A DNA stretch of 23,482 nucleotides. Origin: a virus. Each line of letters starts with the position of its first letter. The first letter of the stretch is position 1. The notes beneath the pieces are model-generated. The model was not told the origin of the DNA. It was given only the letters and a program-made list of their open reading frames with translations, and did no database searches. Made by a program: the position numbers and the translations under genes. This document shows, in pieces, positions 618-21,867 of the stretch. Location of the stretch: positions 1-23,482 of the IMG/VR virus record IMGVR_UViG_3300010291_000005; one strand, 5' to 3'.

Positions 618-1036
618 GCTTGGCTCGAATTCTGATAAAATTTTAGTTCACTAATAATCGTCTCTTTGTCGCCCATGTAATAGTCTTCGATAAATCCGGG
701 AAGTAATAAGCATTGATAATATGCCGTTGGATCAATATAGTATTTATAATAAACCCGGCACATCCCTTCGCTTTGATATATCGCATGAACTTTTGCTTCT
801 GTTGTTGAATAATGATGTTTTATTTGCACTGATATTATTTTGGGGGTTATATCGTGATTGCTTGAAACGTTCACCTTAATCTTGTCTTGCACCGATGGAG
901 CCTGAACATCTGAAACAAAAACCTCAGAACTTACAGCCGGTCGCATTTCAACTGATTGAATTTCGTTGTCATCGAAATCATAATTCGTTGTCCACGTAAC
1001 CCCCATTGACGCAATTTGTATTCTCAAAACATCCAT
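614..1036 (-). CDS. Small tail protein downstream of tape measure
   Basis: This 140-residue protein lies directly after the tape measure gene, and its ATG shares a base with that gene's stop (TAATG at 1036). It has a mixed beta-rich sequence with a Tyr-rich middle (YYKYYIDPTAYYQ), and no signal peptide or membrane segment. I do not recognise the family. Siphoviruses usually place distal-tail (Dit-like) or tail-tip proteins here, so a tail-tip assembly role is likely but inferred only from order. It is shorter than typical Dit proteins (over 200 residues). Confidence 0.7.
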   Translation of the reverse strand: MDVLRIQIASMGVTWTTNYDFDDNEIQSVEMRPAVSSEVFVSDVQAPSVQDKIKVNVSSNHDITPKIISVQIKHHYSTTEAKVHAIYQSEGMCRVYYKYYIDPTAYYQCLLLPGFIEDYYMGDKETIISELKFYQNSSQA

Positions 1037-4000
1037 TATCTAAACCGTCTAAATTGATCCAATGTTTTCACTGAATAGGCCTTTTGTTCTTTTTGGCGTG
1101 GCGTTACATGATTATCGGTAAAAGATACCGACGTTAACGGCCCCGGCTCGTTTATAATAATAGCAGGAGTATTTCCTTGATCCCCGCCCAACGCTCCCGG
1201 ATCGCCAGTTTCCCTGAACGAATCCCATTGAGCCGGGGAGAACATTCCGGCCACATCCGGCTGAATCACCTGTTCACCTTCAAGCAGTTTTGCGGGTACT
1301 TCTTTCCGGCCCTTGTAATATCCTAAACCTTCATGAGCGACAATCATGTTCGCCGAATCCAACACCGCTCCGCCTTCGTGGAAAGCCTGAACTATTCCGC
1401 CTTCATGATACGATCCGCTTTGTACGTAATTCACGGTAACGGTCACTGTTTTGTTTGGTAGGTTCTTAATGTTATTTGCAAGTATCGCCACATAGTCAAG
1501 TGCCGTAAATACACTGTCAATATTAATTGATAGATTCTTTATCGGTATCGCACTCAGCTGTCCCGAAAGACTGCCCACCCGTGACATGGCTGTATCAACA
1601 GATGTAAGACCGATCGAAATATTCCTTGTTTTGGCTATATCATTTAAGATTGTCTTCATGTTTTGCATTGCTTCATAAGCTTTCTCGAATGCATTATAAT
1701 CTAAATTAATAAGCTTATTGTCAGGTACGTCATTAATGGCAAGTTCCAGATTTTCAGCGGATGTTTTTGCGGCAATCAAGCTTGATGCATTAGCCTTCAC
1801 AGTAACGTTTGGGCTTATTTGTTCGATTTCGTTTTCTATTTGCATAACCCTTGCTTGTGCTGCCGCAATGTCCGCATCTATTGCAATTTTATCCTCAGAT
1901 GCAGTTTGAAACAATCCTTCAACCTGAACGCCCAGTGCGTTTATTTGATTTTGTGCGTTTTGCGTTTCAAATTCAATGGCCTTTTCTCGGTCAACCTCAA
2001 GGCCAAGTTCTCCGTATAGTGTAATCAAATCGTCAAGAGATTTTTTGGCATCTTTATAAGCCTGAGATTCGGGATTAAGTTCCTTTAAATAATCCTGCAT
2101 CCTGACAATAGCTGCATTTATTTGTTCATCTGCGTCCGTTACGTCCAAGTCAATTTTAAAATACAACAACTGTTCAATGGCCGCCTGTGCGGTTTTCATA
2201 TCCTGTTCAAATTGGGTGTAATCCTGGAAAATGGCTTTCAGCATTTCACCCCATTCAATGGTCAACTCTTTAGCCTTTCCTGTTATTTCCGAAAGTGCGT
2301 TTGCGACATAATTGAAATCGACTTGAAATTCCGTTTGCGATAAATACGCCTGTAAGTCGCGGAGCTGATCCATTTGCCCCATAAGTTCAACCGCCCGCGT
2401 CATTGCCTCTGTATCTATATTTATTTTCTGGTCTTGCAGTTCTCCGATTACACCATTTAACAAAAACGCTTCATCGGTCAAAGACTTAATCCGTTCTTCA
2501 TATTCTTTTGCCGCTTGCTCGGCCTCTCTCTGTACTGCAATCTGTGTTTGATATGGTGATGTCTCACCCAATTCACCATATAGCTTGTCAACCTTATCGC
2601 GCACCTGTTCATATTCATAAGAGAGCGGATCAAGCGCACCCATCAGGGCTTCAAGCGACATGATTTGTGCACGTATAGAAGATTCAGATTTTATACCCAA
2701 ATCAATTAATTGGTTTGCAACATCAACCTGAGAATCCCAATCAAGCGCAAGTAACGCATGATCATACATTGCAACCGCATCAGCATTTCTCCGGAACTGT
2801 TCGGCGGCCAGCCTTGCGACGCGCTCCGCTTCTGCCTGTGCTTCCGTAAATGCCCTTGCCTGTTCTTCCGCCTCGGACTGTGCCCTTGCAAGTACTTCGG
2901 CTTCCGCCGCTGCCTCAGCCTGTGCCCCGGCAAGTATTTCGGCCTCTCTCGCCGCTAGCGCTTCCGCTTCTGCAAACGCTTTTAACTCTTCCCTGTTTTT
3001 ATACCACTGCTCTTGCGCGTCTCTTGCCGTTTCATAGACTTCCTGTTGTATGCGTCTCTGCTCTTCTTGTATGGCGGCATAATCAATAAGCAATCCCGCA
3101 TTAATAAGTATCTGTCTTGCAGTTTCATCAAGCCCAGCAATATATTGTTCCTGCGCTCCAACCAGCCCGGCCATTGTGTAACCCAAAATGACCTGTTGCG
3201 CGTTCAGGTCTGCATACGCCTGACTCATCGGATCAAGGCCGGAAAGAATATCTTTGTTTACTAAATACTGTTCATGAAGCATTTGAAGAAATGGAGACTT
3301 GTCCCATTCTGTCGAACCATAATAATCCAAAAGCCTTACGGTTTCGTCAATCAAGGTTTCCGTGAATTTCGCCGCGTCCTTAAATAGGGTATCAAACCCG
3401 ATTGAAGCCACGAACGCGTCAAGCTTTTCTTGGGTTATTTCAATAGCATCAGAAAGACTGGTAAATCCCTCTGACTGTGCAAGCAAGTTCGCAGCCATTT
3501 CAGCGCCGTACCTAAAAACCCCGCTTGTCTCAACCTGAAACCCCAGATCAACCCATATATCCCTGTTGTCTTGCAGTACCTCGGAAAGCGTCTTTATCCC
3601 ACCTTCCAGGTTTTTAATTTCAAGATCAACCGCACGAATCGCCGCTCCGGTTTCTCCGAGAGAATCAATGAAATCGTCAACCGTTTTTATGCCCTTGTCC
3701 GTCGTCCCGAACATATCACCAAGTGCAAACGTTAGAAATTGAACAGCACCTAAAACGGGATTAGCAACAAAGGTAAATAGAACACTGACCATTTTACCAA
3801 GTGCGCCCTCAGCGCCCAAAACCTGATCGGCAAGCTGGGCCATTGCTATGGCATTTTCTTTCGTAAATGTTGTGCTTTCTTTTTGCGATTCGATAAGATG
3901 CGCGTTTTCCATTACGTATTTTTCAACTTCCGGAACTGTCTCAATGAGCGTCCCTAAAAAGTCAAATGTGCTTACCCGCATCTCTGTTGTTACATCTTTT

Positions 4001-6060
4001 GCACCGCCCATGTTTTCAATGTATTTTTGCAAGGAAGTATCCGTACCTATCTGCAAGTAAAGCCTATTCAACTCATCCATAATTTGTGCAATCGCCCGAT
4101 CTTCGTTTATGGATTTTGCAACCCTATATAACCCCTCGAATTTATCAATTTGTTCCTGGATAGATCGGTTTGTCTGGACGCCCGCATCTGCAAGAGTTTG
4201 ATGTATTTCCGCAAGGCGTTCTTGTTCTTCTTTTAGTTTTCTTACAGCGGCCTCAGCCTTTAGGGCTGCTTTTTCGGCTTCGTTAAGTTCCCCAGAATTT
4301 GTCATTGCCGCAATAGTATTTTTCCCAAACACTTTTGTCGATTCTTCAATTTCCTCGGTAAGTGCTTTTTGTTTTTCAAGTAGTGCTGTAAGTGCATTAT
4401 CTCTAACAGTTTGCGCCGCATCACCCATACTGTTAAGCTGGAATGAAAGACCCTGTAAAACAAATCCCAAAATATTCGTGCCGCTTGCAAGCCCTACAAT
4501 CTTTTCATTTACTCTTTCAAGTTCTTCTCTTAATCCTATTTGACGCAACCGGATTGAAGTTGTTATGTAATCCTCATAATTATCTTTTAGGTTAATAACT
4601 TCAATACCTTGTTCTTTTAACTTACCCGTGATTATTTTTGTTATTTTGTCAAATTCTTCTTGTTCCTTTGTCGTTAGGGTTGTTTTTCCTGCAAGCTCTC
4701 CATATCTATCCTTTAATTTCAAAAGCTCCAGAGATTCCTCGTTTGTATTTCTGATTCTTTTTAGTTGTTCTTGTGTATGGGCTTCCGCTGCGGCATTAAG
4801 CGCCCCCAGCGCGACAACAATCGCCGTGATTGCAATGCCGACCGGCCCAAAGCTCGCCGCCCATAAAGCTTTCATTGCAATTATGGCTTTATATGCTCCG
4901 GCTAATCCACCAACCGCCATTATTAAAGTTGTAACAGATTTTGTAATCGCCATAAATGTTTCAGGATGGGTATTAATCCACGTCAACGCGTCGGTCAAAG
5001 TCGGAAGGATTTTACTGCCCAGTTCGATAAAGGCAACATTCAGTTGGTTTTTCATTAACTCGACTTGCGCCTTCATCGTAGCTTGCTGAATCTCAAACGC
5101 CTCATTTGCAAGGCCGGTAGCGTTATACATCGCCATCGTCTTGCTTGCGAAGTCTTCGGCCTGCGCGCCGGTCAATGCAAGAAAGCCAACCATTGCCTCC
5201 TTACGACCAAGAAGCGATCCAATTTCAAGCCCATAATCTTCGGTATAATTTTTTAGTGCGTTCATCGCACCCGAAAGCGACCTAAATTTTTCAACTAGCT
5301 CACGACCGCTTGATACACCCAGGGCTTCAAAGGCTGTTGCGAGGTTTGCAGTGGGTTCCTTTGCAAGCATTACCATAATACCTTCAAGCTGGGTCATCGC
5401 TTCGGCAGTGTTTCCAGTAGGCCCGGCTAACGTTGCGGCTGCGCCTGCAAGCTCCTCAAGGCTAATTCCAAGAGTTGACGCAATTGGAACAGCGCCGCCC
5501 ATCGTAGCTGCAAGTTCGGCCATCGTTGTTTGGCCAAGTTTAATAGTTTGAAAAACAATATCCGAAATCTTGTCTATCTCACTCCACTCATAACCGTAAC
5601 CCTTGATAATGGAACTAAACAAAGTAAAGGTGCTCGACACATCTGCAACGCCCCCGACCGCAGCTTTTGTAGAAACCTCAAGAACGTTCATTGCTTCGCT
5701 TGCCGGAACGGTTGCGGAAACAACCTGATATAAAGCACCAGCGAGTTCATCGGCAGATTTCGGCATTCTTGTAGAAAGTTCAAGAATAGACGCGTTCAGG
5801 GAATCAAATTCTTTTGATTCTTTTCCAAGAAGCGTGTGAACGTCCGCCATTTTTGATTCAAACTTGGTAGCCGCGATAACCGCACCAGTAAACGCCGCCG
5901 CGCCTGCAAGAACCGCCGCGTTTAACGCTGCGCTTTGTAGGGCTGCCGTTTTTTGTACCTGTGCGTCTACGCCTTGAAGCTTTCGCATAAAAGCCGCATC
6001 GCCTTCAAGTCCGATATGAACCAGAATGTCGCGTCCGCCGCCGCCCGTCAATCCTAACAT
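1036..6060 (-). CDS. Tail tape measure protein
   Basis: At 1674 residues this is the largest gene. Tape measure proteins fill the tail lumen, set tail length and enter the cell ahead of DNA. The first ~350 residues resemble the TP901-type tape-measure domain (KFESKMADVHTLL, then STRMPKSADELAGALYQVVS and ISLEELAGAAATLA). Hydrophobic segments occur near residues 42-62, 370-425 and 760-790. A long Ala/Glu-rich coiled coil spans about 1020-1090. The C-terminus has the repeated HEGG motif (HEGGIV, HEGGAV) and a LLEGEQVIQP stretch seen at the ends of many tape measures. I see no peptidase or lysozyme domain. The start overlaps the stop of the preceding T frame (TGATG). At about 0.15 nm per residue, the expected tail is roughly 250 nm. 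Confidence 0.95.
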   Translation of the reverse strand: MLGLTGGGGRDILVHIGLEGDAAFMRKLQGVDAQVQKTAALQSAALNAAVLAGAAAFTGAVIAATKFESKMADVHTLLGKESKEFDSLNASILELSTRMPKSADELAGALYQVVSATVPASEAMNVLEVSTKAAVGGVADVSSTFTLFSSIIKGYGYEWSEIDKISDIVFQTIKLGQTTMAELAATMGGAVPIASTLGISLEELAGAAATLAGPTGNTAEAMTQLEGIMVMLAKEPTANLATAFEALGVSSGRELVEKFRSLSGAMNALKNYTEDYGLEIGSLLGRKEAMVGFLALTGAQAEDFASKTMAMYNATGLANEAFEIQQATMKAQVELMKNQLNVAFIELGSKILPTLTDALTWINTHPETFMAITKSVTTLIMAVGGLAGAYKAIIAMKALWAASFGPVGIAITAIVVALGALNAAAEAHTQEQLKRIRNTNEESLELLKLKDRYGELAGKTTLTTKEQEEFDKITKIITGKLKEQGIEVINLKDNYEDYITTSIRLRQIGLREELERVNEKIVGLASGTNILGFVLQGLSFQLNSMGDAAQTVRDNALTALLEKQKALTEEIEESTKVFGKNTIAAMTNSGELNEAEKAALKAEAAVRKLKEEQERLAEIHQTLADAGVQTNRSIQEQIDKFEGLYRVAKSINEDRAIAQIMDELNRLYLQIGTDTSLQKYIENMGGAKDVTTEMRVSTFDFLGTLIETVPEVEKYVMENAHLIESQKESTTFTKENAIAMAQLADQVLGAEGALGKMVSVLFTFVANPVLGAVQFLTFALGDMFGTTDKGIKTVDDFIDSLGETGAAIRAVDLEIKNLEGGIKTLSEVLQDNRDIWVDLGFQVETSGVFRYGAEMAANLLAQSEGFTSLSDAIEITQEKLDAFVASIGFDTLFKDAAKFTETLIDETVRLLDYYGSTEWDKSPFLQMLHEQYLVNKDILSGLDPMSQAYADLNAQQVILGYTMAGLVGAQEQYIAGLDETARQILINAGLLIDYAAIQEEQRRIQQEVYETARDAQEQWYKNREELKAFAEAEALAAREAEILAGAQAEAAAEAEVLARAQSEAEEQARAFTEAQAEAERVARLAAEQFRRNADAVAMYDHALLALDWDSQVDVANQLIDLGIKSESSIRAQIMSLEALMGALDPLSYEYEQVRDKVDKLYGELGETSPYQTQIAVQREAEQAAKEYEERIKSLTDEAFLLNGVIGELQDQKINIDTEAMTRAVELMGQMDQLRDLQAYLSQTEFQVDFNYVANALSEITGKAKELTIEWGEMLKAIFQDYTQFEQDMKTAQAAIEQLLYFKIDLDVTDADEQINAAIVRMQDYLKELNPESQAYKDAKKSLDDLITLYGELGLEVDREKAIEFETQNAQNQINALGVQVEGLFQTASEDKIAIDADIAAAQARVMQIENEIEQISPNVTVKANASSLIAAKTSAENLELAINDVPDNKLINLDYNAFEKAYEAMQNMKTILNDIAKTRNISIGLTSVDTAMSRVGSLSGQLSAIPIKNLSINIDSVFTALDYVAILANNIKNLPNKTVTVTVNYVQSGSYHEGGIVQAFHEGGAVLDSANMIVAHEGLGYYKGRKEVPAKLLEGEQVIQPDVAGMFSPAQWDSFRETGDPGALGGDQGNTPAIIINEPGPLTSVSFTDNHVTPRQKEQKAYSVKTLDQFRRFR

Positions 6061-6440
6061 CAGTTCATCACCCTAATGGTTTTTGTTCCGCCCTTGCCGT
6101 CCGGGATGACCATTACTTTTCCTTCTTGCCTTTCTTTTGCTCTTATAAATATTTGTTTAATTGGCTTTATAAAGTTTTTTCTCTTCTTCAAATTTATAAG
6201 TCCATATAAAGCGTTTATAATTCTTATGGCCGGGGCTTCAAAGAGCGGTCTTAACAGTTCCGGTAGCCACTCCATAAAGTACTGCATTTCCCCCTTTTCC
6301 CTTAACGCCGCGAGCATCAAAGCTCTTCTGTACGGATTTTCAAGGCTTGATTTCAAGGCCGGATCAAATGGGAAAAGCCCGTATCTTTTAGCGATGGCAT
6401 CTGTTATGATCCATTCGTTTAGTTCTCCGGCCTCAATTAG
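6060..6440 (-). CDS. T extension of tail assembly chaperone, made by -1 frameshift (gpGT)
   Basis: This frame has no convincing start of its own: the first candidate is a TTG at 6356 with no ribosome site. It is open upstream to exactly the position where the G gene ends. It is best read as the 126-residue T part of a GT fusion, entered by a -1 shift on A AAA AAC (6446-6440), giving ...AVKN-LIEAGELNEW... and a total of about 296 residues. In lambda-like tails, G and GT bind the tape measure and recruit tail tube subunits. The T part here is helical and basic, ending in a Gly/Lys-rich tail. Its stop overlaps the tape measure start. Annotating it as an independent 98-residue gene would be misleading. 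Confidence 0.85.
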   Translation of the reverse strand, partial: LIEAGELNEWIITDAIAKRYGLFPFDPALKSSLENPYRRALMLAALREKGEMQYFMEWLPELLRPLFEAPAIRIINALYGLINLKKRKNFIKPIKQIFIRAKERQEGKVMVIPDGKGGTKTIRVMN

Positions 6441-6446
6441 TTTTTT
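6353..6446 (-). promoter_or_regulatory. -1 programmed frameshift site with downstream RNA stem
   Basis: The slippery heptamer A AAA AAC occupies 6446-6440 in the correct register (GTA AAA AAC), directly followed by the UAA stop of the G gene. After a 6-nt spacer, AGGCCGGA (6433-6426) pairs perfectly with UCCGGCCU (6363-6356). The helix extends to 11 bp (6436-6426 with 6363-6353) including two G-U pairs. The loop contains a further hairpin (AUGGAUC with GAUgCCAU, 6414-6394). Heptamer, spacer and stem fit the known pattern for -1 frameshifting. Confidence 0.85.
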
Positions 6447-6949
6447 ACTGCGGTTTCAATGTCTTTCGCTTTTATAAATAATTCCGTATACTTTCCCGCG
6501 AGCAGAATCCACAGGTCGTTATCCTCTTTTATAATTTCCTGCATTTCAAGCTTCTGTTCTTCGGTCTTCAGAAAAGGCGTCCCATCAGGGTTTTTCAGAA
6601 ACCCCGGAATCACTTCTTGAATCGTCCGGAGCCTGCTATACTTTTTCGCCATCTGATCCGCAAGGTTTTTCGGCTTCTGGTCTTTTAAAATCTTCAGAGT
6701 GTCCGCGTCATCCTTGAACCTGTCAAGTTCTGCCTCAAAATCAATTTCGTTTACAGGCTTTTTATCAAGCCCTTTTTCCTGATATTCTGAATAATAAATC
6801 TGATAAATCCTGTCCTGGGTTTCGGCGATAGCAAGCCGGTCGCCAACGGTCAAAATAACCGGAATTTTGTGGCCCTCGATAGGGATTTCAAACGTTACTT
6901 TAAGTTGCTTTTTCGCGTGAGCATTTTTAAGCAAGGTAAATCCGTCCAT
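6437..6949 (-). CDS. Tail assembly chaperone (gpG-like)
   Basis: This 170-residue, highly charged, mostly helical protein lies between the tail tube and tape measure genes, the standard place for the G chaperone. A Shine-Dalgarno (AAAGGAG) stands 6 nt before the ATG. The last codons, GTA AAA AAC TAA, form a slippery site, so a fraction of ribosomes should continue in the -1 frame to make the longer GT protein. The N-terminal half (VTFEIPIEGHKIPVILTV) reads like the small folded domain of gpG-type chaperones. Function rests on position plus the frameshift. These chaperones are needed for assembly but are absent from the finished virion in lambda. Confidence 0.85.
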   Translation of the reverse strand: MDGFTLLKNAHAKKQLKVTFEIPIEGHKIPVILTVGDRLAIAETQDRIYQIYYSEYQEKGLDKKPVNEIDFEAELDRFKDDADTLKILKDQKPKNLADQMAKKYSRLRTIQEVIPGFLKNPDGTPFLKTEEQKLEMQEIIKEDNDLWILLAGKYTELFIKAKDIETAVKN

Positions 6950-9400: not shown

Positions 9401-9819
9401 ATCAATATATCCGTGTCCATTACATAATTATCTATATAATCCGATCCGCCTACAACGTGACTTGTGAGTTCGTGTTTGACAAAATCAAGCAGTTCAAAGA
9501 TTGCATTTATTTCATCTTCATAATCATCTTTCAATGCCTTTATATCGCCGGATTTTATCCTTATAGGACCAACCTGGAAATCATCAGTCTTTCTCGTAAC
9601 TACTTTCATCGCAACGAAAATCACCTTTGCGGCTTTTAGCATTGCAATCTGTTCGTCTGAAAGATCGGCCTCCGCCGTGCTGTTGATTTCTAAAATCTTT
9701 GTCATCCAAGCATCGGCGAAAGGAATAAACGTAACCGTATCCAAATCGTCATCTGTTAATTCAACCGAATCAAGCGCAAGCCGCGCCCGGACATCGTCAG
9801 CCTCGATTTCTAAGGACAT
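9397..9819 (-). CDS. Head-tail connector protein (gp6-like)
   Basis: This 140-residue acidic, helical protein begins MSLEIEADDVRARLAL. The start is either the ATG at 9819 or the GTG just before it at 9822; the AGGGG ribosome site is better spaced for the ATG. Early helices (DDLDTVTFIPFADAWMTKIL, then DEQIAMLKAAKVIFVAMKVV) match the DNA-packaging/connector group that docks under the portal and is normally the first neck gene after the capsid genes. Two unusual genes separate it from the capsid region here. The family call is inferred from helix pattern and order. Confidence 0.65.
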   Translation of the reverse strand: MSLEIEADDVRARLALDSVELTDDDLDTVTFIPFADAWMTKILEINSTAEADLSDEQIAMLKAAKVIFVAMKVVTRKTDDFQVGPIRIKSGDIKALKDDYEDEINAIFELLDFVKHELTSHVVGGSDYIDNYVMDTDILI

Positions 9820-10256
9820 CACAACCCCTGCAAGTAAGCCGTACCCCTGAACGTAGCGGTTTCAACGGAATCCGCACCCGTGACAATCGCACGCATCCTG
9901 AAATATCTGGCGGTCATATCGTATGGCATCGCCACAATTTTTGACCCGTCAGCTGTAAAAGAAAAATTGCTGATCGGCGAATCCGATCCCGTACTATCAT
10001 GTAAATAAATAGCAATCCATTCCGTCCCGTCATGAACCCAGAAAGTAACTACCGCCGAGACCGTTCCCGTAGTATCCGCTTCATCGTAAACGACCGAAAA
10101 AGAAGCCTTGTGAAAATTGCCGATATAAAGCGAATCGGAATAAACCGTGTCCGGGGTGGTCGTTGACGTTGTTACCCAGAAATCATTCTTCACAAATCTT
10201 CGTTGTGAAAACAAGGTCGCCGGGAAAACGAGAAACAGGATAATCCATTTTTTCAT
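9819..10256 (-). CDS. Signal-peptide-bearing protein 2 in capsid operon
   Basis: This 145-residue protein starts with a clear Sec signal: MKKW, a hydrophobic core IILFLVFPATLFS, and a probable cleavage before Gln18 (LFS/QRR). The rest is Ser/Thr/Asp-rich and beta-stranded with no membrane segment. An AAGGA site lies before the ATG. No Met occurs between the start and about residue 108, so a shorter cytoplasmic version is unlikely. It lies between capsid and connector genes and overlaps the connector start. It could be an exported or surface-displayed accessory protein or an unusual virion decoration. Function unknown. Confidence 0.75.
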   Translation of the reverse strand: MKKWIILFLVFPATLFSQRRFVKNDFWVTTSTTTPDTVYSDSLYIGNFHKASFSVVYDEADTTGTVSAVVTFWVHDGTEWIAIYLHDSTGSDSPISNFSFTADGSKIVAMPYDMTARYFRMRAIVTGADSVETATFRGTAYLQGL

Positions 10257-10298: not shown

Positions 10299-11129
10299 TT
10301 ACTGTGCGAGCCTGCTAATTATTTGGAATTGCGTTCCATCGTAAACAACCTTAATAATCTGGCCTGCAATCACGTCGCCGGTTGCCAGTGCCGTCGAAAC
10401 AGCCGCAGAAGCCGCTTTTGTTACGTTCTTTGCTCCAAGCGCATTGATTTGTAGCGTTGCACCATCGGTATTTTCGACTGCTATCTTCAGGGTTAACTCA
10501 AGCCCGGTTATATAGGCTGTAATTTCCTGGGCCTCGAAACCCCAGTTATCGTTAGATGTAGATGTATCGGCATAAAAATTGTGACTTGCGATAAATGCCT
10601 TGCGGATCGCCGCGCTATCAAGATCGGCCGCAAGAGTAATGTCTGCGGTTGCCGCCGTGATCTTCCCTGCAACGGTTGCATCACTCCCCGACAAATAAAG
10701 CGGGGTTGTTTGCGATCCAGCCGTTATGACTTTAAAATTGATCCGCCCGTCTTCGGTCGCGTCCGTTTCGTCCAGCACCACGGCTTCAATAGTTACATAA
10801 TTGATAGCCTCCGCCGAATCATTATAAGCCGTGAAATGAATTTTGAAATTATCATTCACCGCCACATCCGGCGTATCTTTTGCAGACACAATGAACAGCT
10901 CTCCGAGAATAGTACTGTCCGCGTTAAAGGTAAGCGAAAATTTACCCTCTCTTTCGTTTTCCAGAGCCGCGTCATTGTCGAACGTGATTGTTCCGATATA
11001 GGTGAAATCCTTCTCACCGTTCTCGATCCAATCCAGCCAGAGATACGCGTTCCCAAAACTTCGCGGTTTGGAAGCCTGACCAAAGATAAGCGCGGGGATC
11101 AATGCCAGAAATACTAAGAGTTTCTTCAT
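10299..11129 (-). CDS. Signal-peptide-bearing protein 1 in capsid operon, fibre-like C-terminus
   Basis: This 276-residue protein opens with MKKLLVFLALIPALIFGQAS, a textbook Sec signal with likely cleavage before Gln18. The body is beta-rich with long Ala/Thr/Asp stretches. The C-terminus (NTDGATLQINALGAKNV, later KVVYDGTQFQIIS) matches a motif common at the ends of phage fibre or head-decoration proteins. GGAGG stands 7 nt before the ATG, which overlaps the upstream stop (ATGA). The protein has no other Met, so the signal cannot be bypassed by an internal AUG. The combination of an export signal with a virion-like C-terminus is odd. Exported decoy, surface protein or virion fibre are all possible. 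Confidence 0.8.
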   Translation of the reverse strand: MKKLLVFLALIPALIFGQASKPRSFGNAYLWLDWIENGEKDFTYIGTITFDNDAALENEREGKFSLTFNADSTILGELFIVSAKDTPDVAVNDNFKIHFTAYNDSAEAINYVTIEAVVLDETDATEDGRINFKVITAGSQTTPLYLSGSDATVAGKITAATADITLAADLDSAAIRKAFIASHNFYADTSTSNDNWGFEAQEITAYITGLELTLKIAVENTDGATLQINALGAKNVTKAASAAVSTALATGDVIAGQIIKVVYDGTQFQIISRLAQ

Positions 11130-15834: not shown

Positions 15835-16046
15835 CGAACTTTTCCCCGGATTATCTTGTCTATGATCGCCGGATCACCGGTTGTTCTTACCCGGTTCTGC
15901 TGCTGGATCAAAATGTCAAGCCGCTGGCAAATCGCCGCAAGGTTGTGACATATTGCCCATGCCGGATCGCTTAACATGGCCCTTTTTTCTTCTTCCGGCA
16001 TGTCATCCGGCGGACGTATCACAACGGGCTGTAGCAATTCGTTCAT
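15831..16046 (-). CDS. Hypothetical small protein in cargo island
   Basis: This 71-residue protein begins MNELLQPVVIRPPDDMPEEE and has a helical second half (AICHNLAAICQRLDILIQQQ) likely to form a coiled coil. ATG 16046 overlaps the methyltransferase stop (ATGA) and has GGGAGG 6 nt upstream, clearly better than the longer start at 16064. It overlaps the next gene by GTGA. The family is not recognised; it may be a small structural or partner protein. Confidence 0.65.
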   Translation of the reverse strand: MNELLQPVVIRPPDDMPEEEKRAMLSDPAWAICHNLAAICQRLDILIQQQNRVRTTGDPAIIDKIIRGKVR

Positions 16047-16624
16047 TCTTTGACCTCCCACCATACACCTCCTAATCTTTCAATGTTTAACCCCATATCG
16101 TTTATCGCCCTTTCAACGCCGGGGAATTGCTTTGTAAGGTCATCACCGACAACCTGCGAATCTGGAAGGCATTTCTTAATTGCCCGTAAATCCGCAAGCA
16201 CGTCAAGATATTGATGCGAACCATCAATATAAACAACCTCCGGAGTAATCCCAAGCTCGGACACTAAATGAACGCCCAGGATACCCTCCATTTCAAGCAT
16301 AATAATTCTATCCCTATATTCCCAACACGAAGCCTGAAACCGTTCTTTTAAGCCATCAAGCCGATATTCATTTTTAAGTTCTTCCGACCCCTTCCATGTG
16401 TCGACACAAATAATCTCCGCGTTTGGGGCAATATCAAGCATCCACCTTGCGGACTTTCCAAGCCATGACCCAATTTCAAGGATAACCCGCGTTTTGTCAT
16501 TTAAAAACTTTCCGAGTACATGCGCGTTATAATCCCCAAACCAGCCGTGATCATCAAAATCATATCCCGGCTTTTCTTTAGGCCAATGTGAATATTCCCT
16601 TAGCTTGTCAAGGGTTACATCCAT
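16043..16624 (-). CDS. Class I SAM-dependent methyltransferase
   Basis: This 193-residue enzyme shows a Rossmann-type SAM site: RVILEIGSWLGKSAR (motif I, about 46-60), AEIICVDTWKGS with Asp75 (motif II), and VVYIDGSHQYLDV (about 129-141), the last typical of the sugar or small-molecule O-methyltransferase group (Methyltransf_24-like). It is not a DNA methyltransferase: no DPPY or NPPY is seen. GAGG stands 8 nt before the ATG, which overlaps the 35-residue membrane protein's stop. With two glycosyltransferase-like neighbours, methylation of a glycan is the likeliest job; that is inference. Confidence 0.75.
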   Translation of the reverse strand: MDVTLDKLREYSHWPKEKPGYDFDDHGWFGDYNAHVLGKFLNDKTRVILEIGSWLGKSARWMLDIAPNAEIICVDTWKGSEELKNEYRLDGLKERFQASCWEYRDRIIMLEMEGILGVHLVSELGITPEVVYIDGSHQYLDVLADLRAIKKCLPDSQVVGDDLTKQFPGVERAINDMGLNIERLGGVWWEVKE

Positions 16625-16722
16625 ACTGCATACCTCGCGTATAAAATCATCCTAAAAAGAAATCCAGCCAGAAACAGAACAAGCAAAAATACGCTCCAGA
16701 TAAACTTAAGAATTTCTTTCAT
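16615..16722 (-). CDS. 35-residue single-span membrane protein
   Basis: ATG 16722 with GGAGG 5 nt upstream opens a 35-codon frame, MKEILKFIWSVFLLVLFLAG..., with one hydrophobic helix (about residues 8-24) and a basic C-terminal side. It overlaps the GT9 gene's end by 17 bases and the methyltransferase start by 10 bases, filling the gap between them. The ribosome site lies within the GT9 frame. Size, hydrophobicity and start signals match the other tiny membrane-protein genes nearby. Function unknown. Confidence 0.7.
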   Translation of the reverse strand: MKEILKFIWSVFLLVLFLAGFLFRMILYARYAVWM

Positions 16723-17578
16723 AGATGCCTCCGATACAATCCTTTAATCTGTTTAATATTTCCGCGTGCCTTGATTCTGTTAATGCTGTATAAAGTTTCC
16801 CTGTCTTCGGAAACCACCGCGTCCCGTTGAAGTCCCATGCAAATATTTTCGCTCCCGCCGCGGCCGCAACATGGACAAGTCCCGAATCACGCCCTACGTA
16901 AAGTTCCGATCGCTGACAAAGATAGGCAATCTCAGAAAGTGTAAGTACGCCCCGCAAATCGCAAACCTGCGGAGAAGTAACCTGAACCGTTTTTTCATCA
17001 TTCCCGACAATCACGACATTCTTTCCCGCCCGGATTAAAGTCTCAATAACTTGCAAACCCAGCTCTGGCATTACGTTCTTCTGCGGGGCTTTCTCAATAT
17101 ATCTTAAGTTCAAAACAACAAACAGATCAAACGGCAGGTTAACAGACTTAAATTCAATGTCAAGCTTCGGGTATATCCCTGCCTTTGCGTATTCACAAAC
17201 TTCATTCATTAGTCTATAGTAAACGATGCAGGAGTTTATATATCCTTTCATTTCTTCTTTATAAAATTCGTTCTGGAAGAACTTGCCGGGATTATGCTTC
17301 TTTATCGCCTCGACGTGGTTATCCGATTCCTTTAAATATATCACTGTTTCTTCGGGATTGTCTTTTTCGTATTGCTCCCTAATTACGTTAAAAAGTATAT
17401 TGTCTCCAAGTCCCGGTCCACACGCTGCGAATATGGTTACCTTATTTTTAGGCTTTGGGTATGCCTTATCAAAGATAACCGTCCAACATAAAAGGCAATG
17501 CCCGTTTGTGATTTCAGCGATATTGTCATGTGTCGAATGACTGACAGTCCAGCCGCATTTCTTACAGGTAAATGTCAT
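16706..17578 (-). CDS. Zinc-ribbon / GT9-family glycosyltransferase
   Basis: This 290-residue fusion has an N-terminal zinc ribbon (C5-x2-C8, C28-x2-C31; CKKCGW and HCLLCW) and then a GT-B enzyme of family 9, the family of LPS heptosyltransferases. GPGLGD (54-59) is the N-domain glycine loop. LYVGRDSGLVHVAAAAGAK (226-244) is the classic DSGxxHxAAAxG nucleotide-sugar motif. The enzyme part is ~245 residues, shorter than the usual ~340. Its ATG overlaps the stop of the 46-residue membrane protein upstream. It probably transfers a sugar onto a surface glycan in the cytoplasm, but donor and acceptor are unknown. The ribbon is not a normal part of GT9. Confidence 0.8.
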   Translation of the reverse strand: MTFTCKKCGWTVSHSTHDNIAEITNGHCLLCWTVIFDKAYPKPKNKVTIFAACGPGLGDNILFNVIREQYEKDNPEETVIYLKESDNHVEAIKKHNPGKFFQNEFYKEEMKGYINSCIVYYRLMNEVCEYAKAGIYPKLDIEFKSVNLPFDLFVVLNLRYIEKAPQKNVMPELGLQVIETLIRAGKNVVIVGNDEKTVQVTSPQVCDLRGVLTLSEIAYLCQRSELYVGRDSGLVHVAAAAGAKIFAWDFNGTRWFPKTGKLYTALTESRHAEILNRLKDCIGGIYERNS

Positions 17579-20610: not shown

Positions 20611-21867
20611 TCACCGGCTAGTTATAACGGACAAAAACATATTGGCATCTGTATAATTTTGTAATATATCCGTTGCAGCCCAGACCAGCGCGTCCATCCT
20701 GTTTGGTGAAGTCATTCCGGGTTGCCACATACACATCTCATCTTCTAAATTTTCAAACACACCTACATGATGACCCCGGCCTTGCTCATAGATTGCCGAT
20801 ATAGGCTCCGCCCTGATCGCCTTGCCCCGTGAAGCGTGAACTAGATAAACGGGGACGTTCGGATCGACCGTTGCGATAGTCTCGGAAACCATCTCTCCGC
20901 CCTGGTTCGACTCTGCCACAATGCAATCTGCTTCATGTTTGTAATACGCCCAAACAGCCCGCGAAGCCCATTCCTTCGGAGATGCTCGAAAGCTTTCATC
21001 CGCTAGGGTATACGTATGCACTTTTGCATCTATCAGTTTTCCTCCGACGATAACAATACCACACTCATCACCGGCTTTTGTAGCAGACGGATCGACACCT
21101 ACTACCACGCGATCAAGATCAGAAACAGACAACACCCGGTTTTCCTCTATCCAGTCGCGTTTCCAAACAGCCGATGGATTATCATCTATATCCTCGGCCA
21201 TAATCTCCATCCGGTATGCAAGAGAGGTCATATCCTTTTTTAGGTCTTCGATTGCTACTTTTGAAATATAGGGATTATCAAAACTGGTAAAATGGAACGT
21301 TCCCCAATCTGGGTTTTCTTGTGCTTTTTTAAATAGCTTTGCGGCATGCATAGGATCGTCTGCCTTTGAAACGCTTCTTGTTTTCGGGGACGGCGGAGTA
21401 TAAATAAAAACAGCATCCCCGTTATTGTCAAGCAACATCGGCGCTCCGACCATTTCCCATGCGCTTTCGTTCATAAGCTGCCATTCATCAAATATAAGCC
21501 TATCCGCATAATCTCCACGTAAGGTGTCAGCACTCCATGCTGTCTTAGCTCTGATCCTTGTTTTTGTTCCGGGGCTTTCAATCACATGGTTCGTCTCATT
21601 TTTATAAAATACGCCCGCCTCTATCGGCTCCCAAAGTGCCGCTGTAACTTCAAACCAAAACGCCCCGACCTGATCTTGTGTAGGTGCTGCATACAAAACC
21701 CGATGACCCGCCAAGAATTCTTCAACAGCATAATATGCAATTCCACAGGTCTTCCCGCCTCTACGGCCCGCACGAATGATCTTCCGCTTCTTCTTGCTGT
21801 TGATAAATTCAAGCTGCTTCTCGTGCGGTTCAATTTGATGAACCTTATACTTTCTTACTTCGGTCAT
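20611..21867 (-). CDS. Terminase large subunit
   Basis: This 418-residue packaging motor has an N-terminal ATPase: Walker A AGRRGGKT (33-40), Walker B LIFDEW (124-129) and a coupling motif IYTPPS (about 155-160). The C-terminal RNase H-like nuclease has VVVGVDPSAT (first catalytic Asp), CIVAESNQGG (second acidic residue) and NRMDALVWAATDIL (third Asp). It cuts concatemeric DNA and pumps it through the portal. Length is normal for this type. It overlaps the small subunit by 23 bases, and its ribosome site is weak, suggesting coupled translation. Confidence 0.95.
   Translation of the reverse strand: MTEVRKYKVHQIEPHEKQLEFINSKKKRKIIRAGRRGGKTCGIAYYAVEEFLAGHRVLYAAPTQDQVGAFWFEVTAALWEPIEAGVFYKNETNHVIESPGTKTRIRAKTAWSADTLRGDYADRLIFDEWQLMNESAWEMVGAPMLLDNNGDAVFIYTPPSPKTRSVSKADDPMHAAKLFKKAQENPDWGTFHFTSFDNPYISKVAIEDLKKDMTSLAYRMEIMAEDIDDNPSAVWKRDWIEENRVLSVSDLDRVVVGVDPSATKAGDECGIVIVGGKLIDAKVHTYTLADESFRASPKEWASRAVWAYYKHEADCIVAESNQGGEMVSETIATVDPNVPVYLVHASRGKAIRAEPISAIYEQGRGHHVGVFENLEDEMCMWQPGMTSPNRMDALVWAATDILQNYTDANMFLSVITSR

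Follow-up and report, generated by a model that had tools for sequence, protein, structure and literature searches.

Does a phage whose putative tail assembly chaperone gene has a run of six A close to its stop codon make a second, longer chaperone by shifting ribosomes into the -1 frame? The DNA that raises this question is a window of 23,482 bases, the whole stretch analysed here, from a virus record. It contains a head-and-tail gene block on the minus strand, with genes for terminase, portal, capsid, an HK97-gp10-like neck protein and the tape measure. Two frames, G and T, directly precede the tape measure gene, and T lies in the -1 frame relative to G:

6437..6949, minus strand: G, an open reading frame for a putative tail assembly chaperone; 170 codons, UAA stop at 6439-6437, Shine-Dalgarno sequence AAGGAG before the ATG
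6440..6060, minus strand: T, the -1 frame extension; 126 codons, first codon CTA at 6440, TGA stop at 6062-6060
1036..6060, minus strand: tail tape measure protein of the TP901 type; 1674 aa (PHROG 28, E 4.7e-48; PF10145, E 4.9e-26; TIGR01760, E 1.2e-36)

The initial annotation had described the -1 frame as open for 126 codons up to the tape measure start. This is what we find, the TGA of T (6062-6060) overlapping the tape measure ATG. Joined, G and T give a protein of 296 aa; its computed mass is 34.3 kDa, which replaces the ~33 kDa first put forward as the target for mass spectrometry of GT.

The remainder of the window holds several other features. A methyltransferase (PF13578) and a heptosyltransferase-like glycosyltransferase (PF01075) are encoded within the structural gene block (window 16043-17578). 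Two proteins of the head-tail block (window 9819-10256 and 10299-11129) have no Pfam match; by eye they begin with secreted-like starts, MKKWIILFLVFPATLFSQ and MKKLLVFLALIPALIFGQ, at an odd site for exported proteins. Identity of the terminase (window 20611-21867) is 61% to the Methanosarcina virus MetMV protein and reaches 66% with IMG/VR contigs. No tail match was found in the contigs with a related terminase, and the relatives of the terminase and capsid do not have the tail module in common with the window. A related terminase without a matching tail in those IMG/VR contigs may reflect module exchange. Neither Rfam families nor tRNA genes were found in the window.

The end of G reads GTA AAA AAC TAA. 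As had been proposed, the heptamer A_AAA_AAC stands there in the register required for a -1 slip, immediately before the stop codon; a second in-register heptamer lies further upstream:

6440..6446, minus strand: slip heptamer A_AAA_AAC, -1 register, abutting the G stop TAA (6439-6437)
6491..6497, minus strand: second in-register heptamer, G_GGA_AAG, inside G; the -1 frame ends at TGA 6458-6456 after 11 codons

In-register motifs of the type X_XXY_YYZ (Y = A or T) occur at 28 of 6934 codons in the genes of the window, and of these the slip heptamer alone sits against a stop. Six codons upstream of the slip site, TGA 6458-6456 closes the T frame, so that a shift into T is confined to a short stretch. 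G_GGA_AAG (6497-6491) was considered as the GT slip site and rejected, being a dead end whose product stops after 11 codons. No Shine-Dalgarno-like stimulator was seen upstream of the slip site. In E. coli, A_AAA_AAC is a weak slip site compared with A_AAA_AAG (PMC5009743), which makes a stimulator plausible.

Whether T is translated was assessed with codon use learned from the other genes of the window, comparing in-frame with out-of-frame stretches. T scores as coding-like from the slip site onward, ahead of any start codon in its frame. Its first 27 codons reach a score that only 0.4% of out-of-frame stretches match; among in-frame stretches, 42% lie at or below it. Over 125 codons, not one out-of-frame stretch reaches its score. 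Compared with most genes the score is weak, falling in the lowest 4% of stretches of equal length. By codon use the T frame counts as coding, if less clearly than the average gene. None of its start codons follows a Shine-Dalgarno sequence, and the earliest of the usual kinds are TTG at 6356 and TTG/ATG at 6320/6317. The pair combines two of the properties by which such pairs are recognised, an in-register slip heptamer inside the overlap and a T frame that lacks a good start codon.

T could alternatively be a separate protein, made by ribosomes that reinitiate after the G stop. An AUU codon in the T frame (6437) does overlap that stop, with UUG (6356) and AUG (6317) following, yet none of the three is preceded by a Shine-Dalgarno sequence. 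Starting at 6356 or 6317 would leave 27-40 coding-like codons unread, and AUU is a very rare start codon. We hold reinitiation to be very unlikely.

Downstream of the slip site, the transcript is predicted to fold into a long-range stem, both arms of which were assessed by folding, pair probabilities and three chance controls:

6426..6436 (core 6433-6426), minus strand: 5' arm of the stem, UUGAGGCCGGA
6353..6363 (core 6363-6356), minus strand: 3' arm of the stem, UCCGGCCUUGA

The 8-bp core, AGGCCGGA paired with UCCGGCCU, begins after a 6-nt spacer. It can be extended to 11 bp as suggested in the initial annotation; the longer form encloses a 62-nt loop and leaves 3 nt after the heptamer, and two of the three pairs beyond the core are G-U. 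Folding of 6450-6340 on the minus strand, which that annotation had proposed as a check, predicted the core stem with a minimum free energy (MFE) of -26.2 kcal/mol (z of -1.8 to about -2). With 60 nt of upstream and 200 nt of downstream context, the core pairs have probabilities of at least 0.9. The smaller hairpin noted within the loop is likewise predicted, but the loop hairpins are small and add little. We also searched for an RNA pseudoknot between the loop and downstream sequence; the best candidate, a 9-bp helix in which just 3 of the pairs are G-C, was unconvincing.

The helix is non-random. With a stacking energy of -17.4 kcal/mol, the 11-bp form was equalled by 1 of 2000 dinucleotide shuffles, by none of 1000 synonymous recodings of T and by 0.26% of sense-strand segments of 100 nt taken from the window. 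By total folding energy the region is ordinary to mildly unusual, 14% of the recodings and 19% of the window segments being as stable. A published rule for bacterial stimulators describes a simple or branched hairpin of 17-140 nt whose first G-C pair lies 4-10 nt after the motif (PMC4066793); the stem in the window, which starts at +7 and is 76 nt long, conforms to it.

Neither G nor T has a detectable relative, and both would be orphan proteins as judged by sequence comparison. There was no match in PHROGs, Pfam, NCBIfam or PDB, none among phage records including INPHARED (tblastn), and none by phmmer against 117 tape-measure loci. Patterns of back-translated peptides, which reach close relatives only, found none in IMG/VR or in GTDB representative genomes, and G alone found no homologue in about 500 whole genomes. 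Two weak matches to G (E 2e-4 and 0.006) were rejected, lying inside frames of 1247 and 440 aa. AlphaFold models were too poor for a fold search, with mean pLDDT of 41 (G) and 52 (T). Because tail chaperones diverge fast, the missing similarity says little.

The tape measure protein does have relatives, in 80 viral loci, 33 genome loci and additional phage records, the best at 31-44% identity. Among these, 91 unique loci with a related tape measure and enough upstream sequence were surveyed, and 79 of them carry a G/T pair in the identical -1 arrangement. An in-register heptamer is present in 57 loci, the other two phases giving 9 and 5; A_AAA_AAC occurs most often (13 sites). The surveyed G and T proteins show no detectable similarity to those of the window: the layout is common and the proteins differ. 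That the layout is shared by tape-measure relatives is the main evidence that it is functional in the window, and also that it is ordinary.

The survey bears on two further explanations. The record is a metagenomic virus contig and the slip site is a homopolymer, and a sequencing or assembly error could have shortened a true run of seven A that fuses G and T with no frameshift at all. This we regard as extremely improbable, given that the split into G and T is the rule in independent tape-measure relatives, including isolated phages, and that a stem at the right distance would then be a coincidence. RNA polymerase rather than the ribosome might slip on the six-A run. Polymerase slippage, however, usually needs runs of about eight or nine, and it would leave unexplained the in-register X_XXY_YYZ motifs of the relatives, many of which have no such run; it too is extremely improbable.

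Position, frame, codon use, stem and the 79 tape-measure relatives together give good support to the frameshift signal that the initial annotation assigned to a G/GT pair. We conclude that the window very probably contains a programmed -1 ribosomal frameshift site in a phage tail assembly chaperone gene.

The contribution of the stem can be judged from the same survey. At p <= 0.05, a helix is found at 18 of 58 sites (the window included), compared with 1-7 of 58 at ten mock positions drawn from those loci; at p <= 0.01, the counts are 8-11 of 58 sites and 0-3 of 58 at the mock positions, with the reservation that related loci do not count as independent. The loops at the survey sites are between 3 and 77 nt long, and many of those in significant helices measure 26-77 nt, for example 49 nt (L060), 62 nt (L119), 38 nt (L059), 34 nt (L046) and 38 nt (L034). 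Downstream helices are thus enriched at tail-chaperone slip sites and are often long-looped. No covariation was seen for the stem examined in a family of gut phages with GGGTTTT sites, several of the stem's pairs being broken in about half of the members, and for this reason the enrichment is suggestive rather than proof. The strongest stimulator-like structure in the survey is at L120:3831-3880, where a 19-bp hairpin begins 3 nt beyond A_AAA_AAG and its stop. In a contig provisionally binned as a Pacearchaeota archaeon, the tail genes are laid out in the same way and A_AAA_AAA abuts a TAG stop (L124:926-932).

It is possible, in our view unlikely, that the frameshift is real and the stem incidental, A_AAA_AAC and the stop slipping enough on their own. 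In five loci where A_AAA_AAC adjoins the stop or lies close to it (L068, L074, L089, L129 and L131), no helix at this spacing is significant; the lack of covariation in the gut-phage stem and the ordinary total folding energy in the window point the same way. Against this, the helix of the window is rare by every control, its G-C pair at +7 fits the published rule (PMC4066793), and such sites are enriched in helices as a group. A stimulatory role for the stem remains our preferred reading.

The initial annotation had also considered a stop codon beside the slip site, coupled to a branched, long-loop stimulator, to be uncommon. The survey contradicts this: 10 of the 57 heptamers abut the stop and 7 more are one codon away, making 17 of 57 within one codon, and 18 of 58 sites have a significant helix. 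Nor does the rarity of the combination hold in view of precedents in Acinetobacter phage vB_AbaS_Loki, haloarchaeal virus HCTV-2 and IS911, and the published rule for bacterial sites already covers branched stimulators (PMC4066793).

The closest known case is the tail chaperone pair gp12/gp13 of Loki (LN890663), where CAAAAAACTAATCGAAGTGC is found at the annotated chaperone junction. As in the window, A_AAA_AAC directly precedes UAA, T starts Leu-Ile-Glu, and the chaperone pair sits between the major tail protein and the tape measure; unlike in the window, one extra gene intervenes between T and the tape measure. In Loki, a stem of 8 bp encloses a loop of 17 nt and starts 8 nt after the heptamer, compared with 11 bp and a 62-nt loop here, and the chaperones show no similarity to G and T. 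The authors of the Loki study reported the heptamer next to the stop (PMC5313236). HCTV-2 likewise has A_AAA_AAC at its tail-chaperone junction (PMC5009743). IS911 is a known bacterial three-way-junction stimulator (PMC5009743) and shares with the window a 3' structure that is branched and lies a few bases beyond an A-rich heptamer (PMC5009743, PMC4066793); it differs in belonging to a transposase gene and in having an upstream Shine-Dalgarno stimulator. Chaperone pairs of Bacillota prophages and viral contigs (L024-L144) resemble that of the window in their -1 overlap, often with A_AAA_AAC abutting the stop or a codon ahead of it and in some cases with long-loop stems, their G and T proteins being not detectably related to ours. 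The slip heptamer of lambda, G_GGA_AAG, differs from that of the window, and family libraries detect no sequence similarity between the two systems. Lambda G/GT nevertheless has the same two-ORF design before the tape measure, with a -1 frameshift near the end of G (PMC5009743). The site in the window is a further example of a device used by most long-tailed phages.

From this layout we infer slipping, its rate, stimulation by the stem and the roles of G and T as follows. Most ribosomes translating G would terminate at UAA, giving the G protein of 170 aa. A minority would be slowed by the stem that follows, slip back by one base on A_AAA_AAC and read CUA AUU GAG onward in the -1 frame, giving the 296-aa GT. 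The junction peptide NLIEAGELNEWIITDAIAK would indicate a slip after AAC has been read, and a KK-LIEAG junction a slip before AAC. By analogy with lambda, G would bind the tape measure and the T part would bring in the tail-tube subunit (PMC5009743), and the frequency of slipping would set the G:GT ratio.

The stop codon may itself take part. In 8 of 10 G/T families (the window and Loki included; for example, L052, L068, L120, L124 and L026), heptamers of the A6N type are no more than one codon from the stop; for other heptamers this holds in 2 of 11 families (Fisher p 0.009, post hoc). This adjacency hints at a role for the stop codon. A passage in PMC4373837, citing earlier work, states that release factor competes with slipping at a stop after the HIV-1 slip sequence in bacteria; a literature search found no test of such competition for phage tails. 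In a speculative model, to which we give rather little credence, A_AAA_AAN would act with the stop in the ribosomal A site and release factor would compete with slipping, so that the G:GT ratio would depend on the supply of release factor as well as on the stem.

Tail-chaperone frameshift sites already form a long list, and the window contributes another clean one, whose proteins are orphans. The more general result comes from the survey: downstream helices are enriched at these sites and often long-looped, and A6N heptamers tend to adjoin the stop. Together, the adjacency and the enrichment make it testable whether release factor helps to tune the ratio of G to GT.
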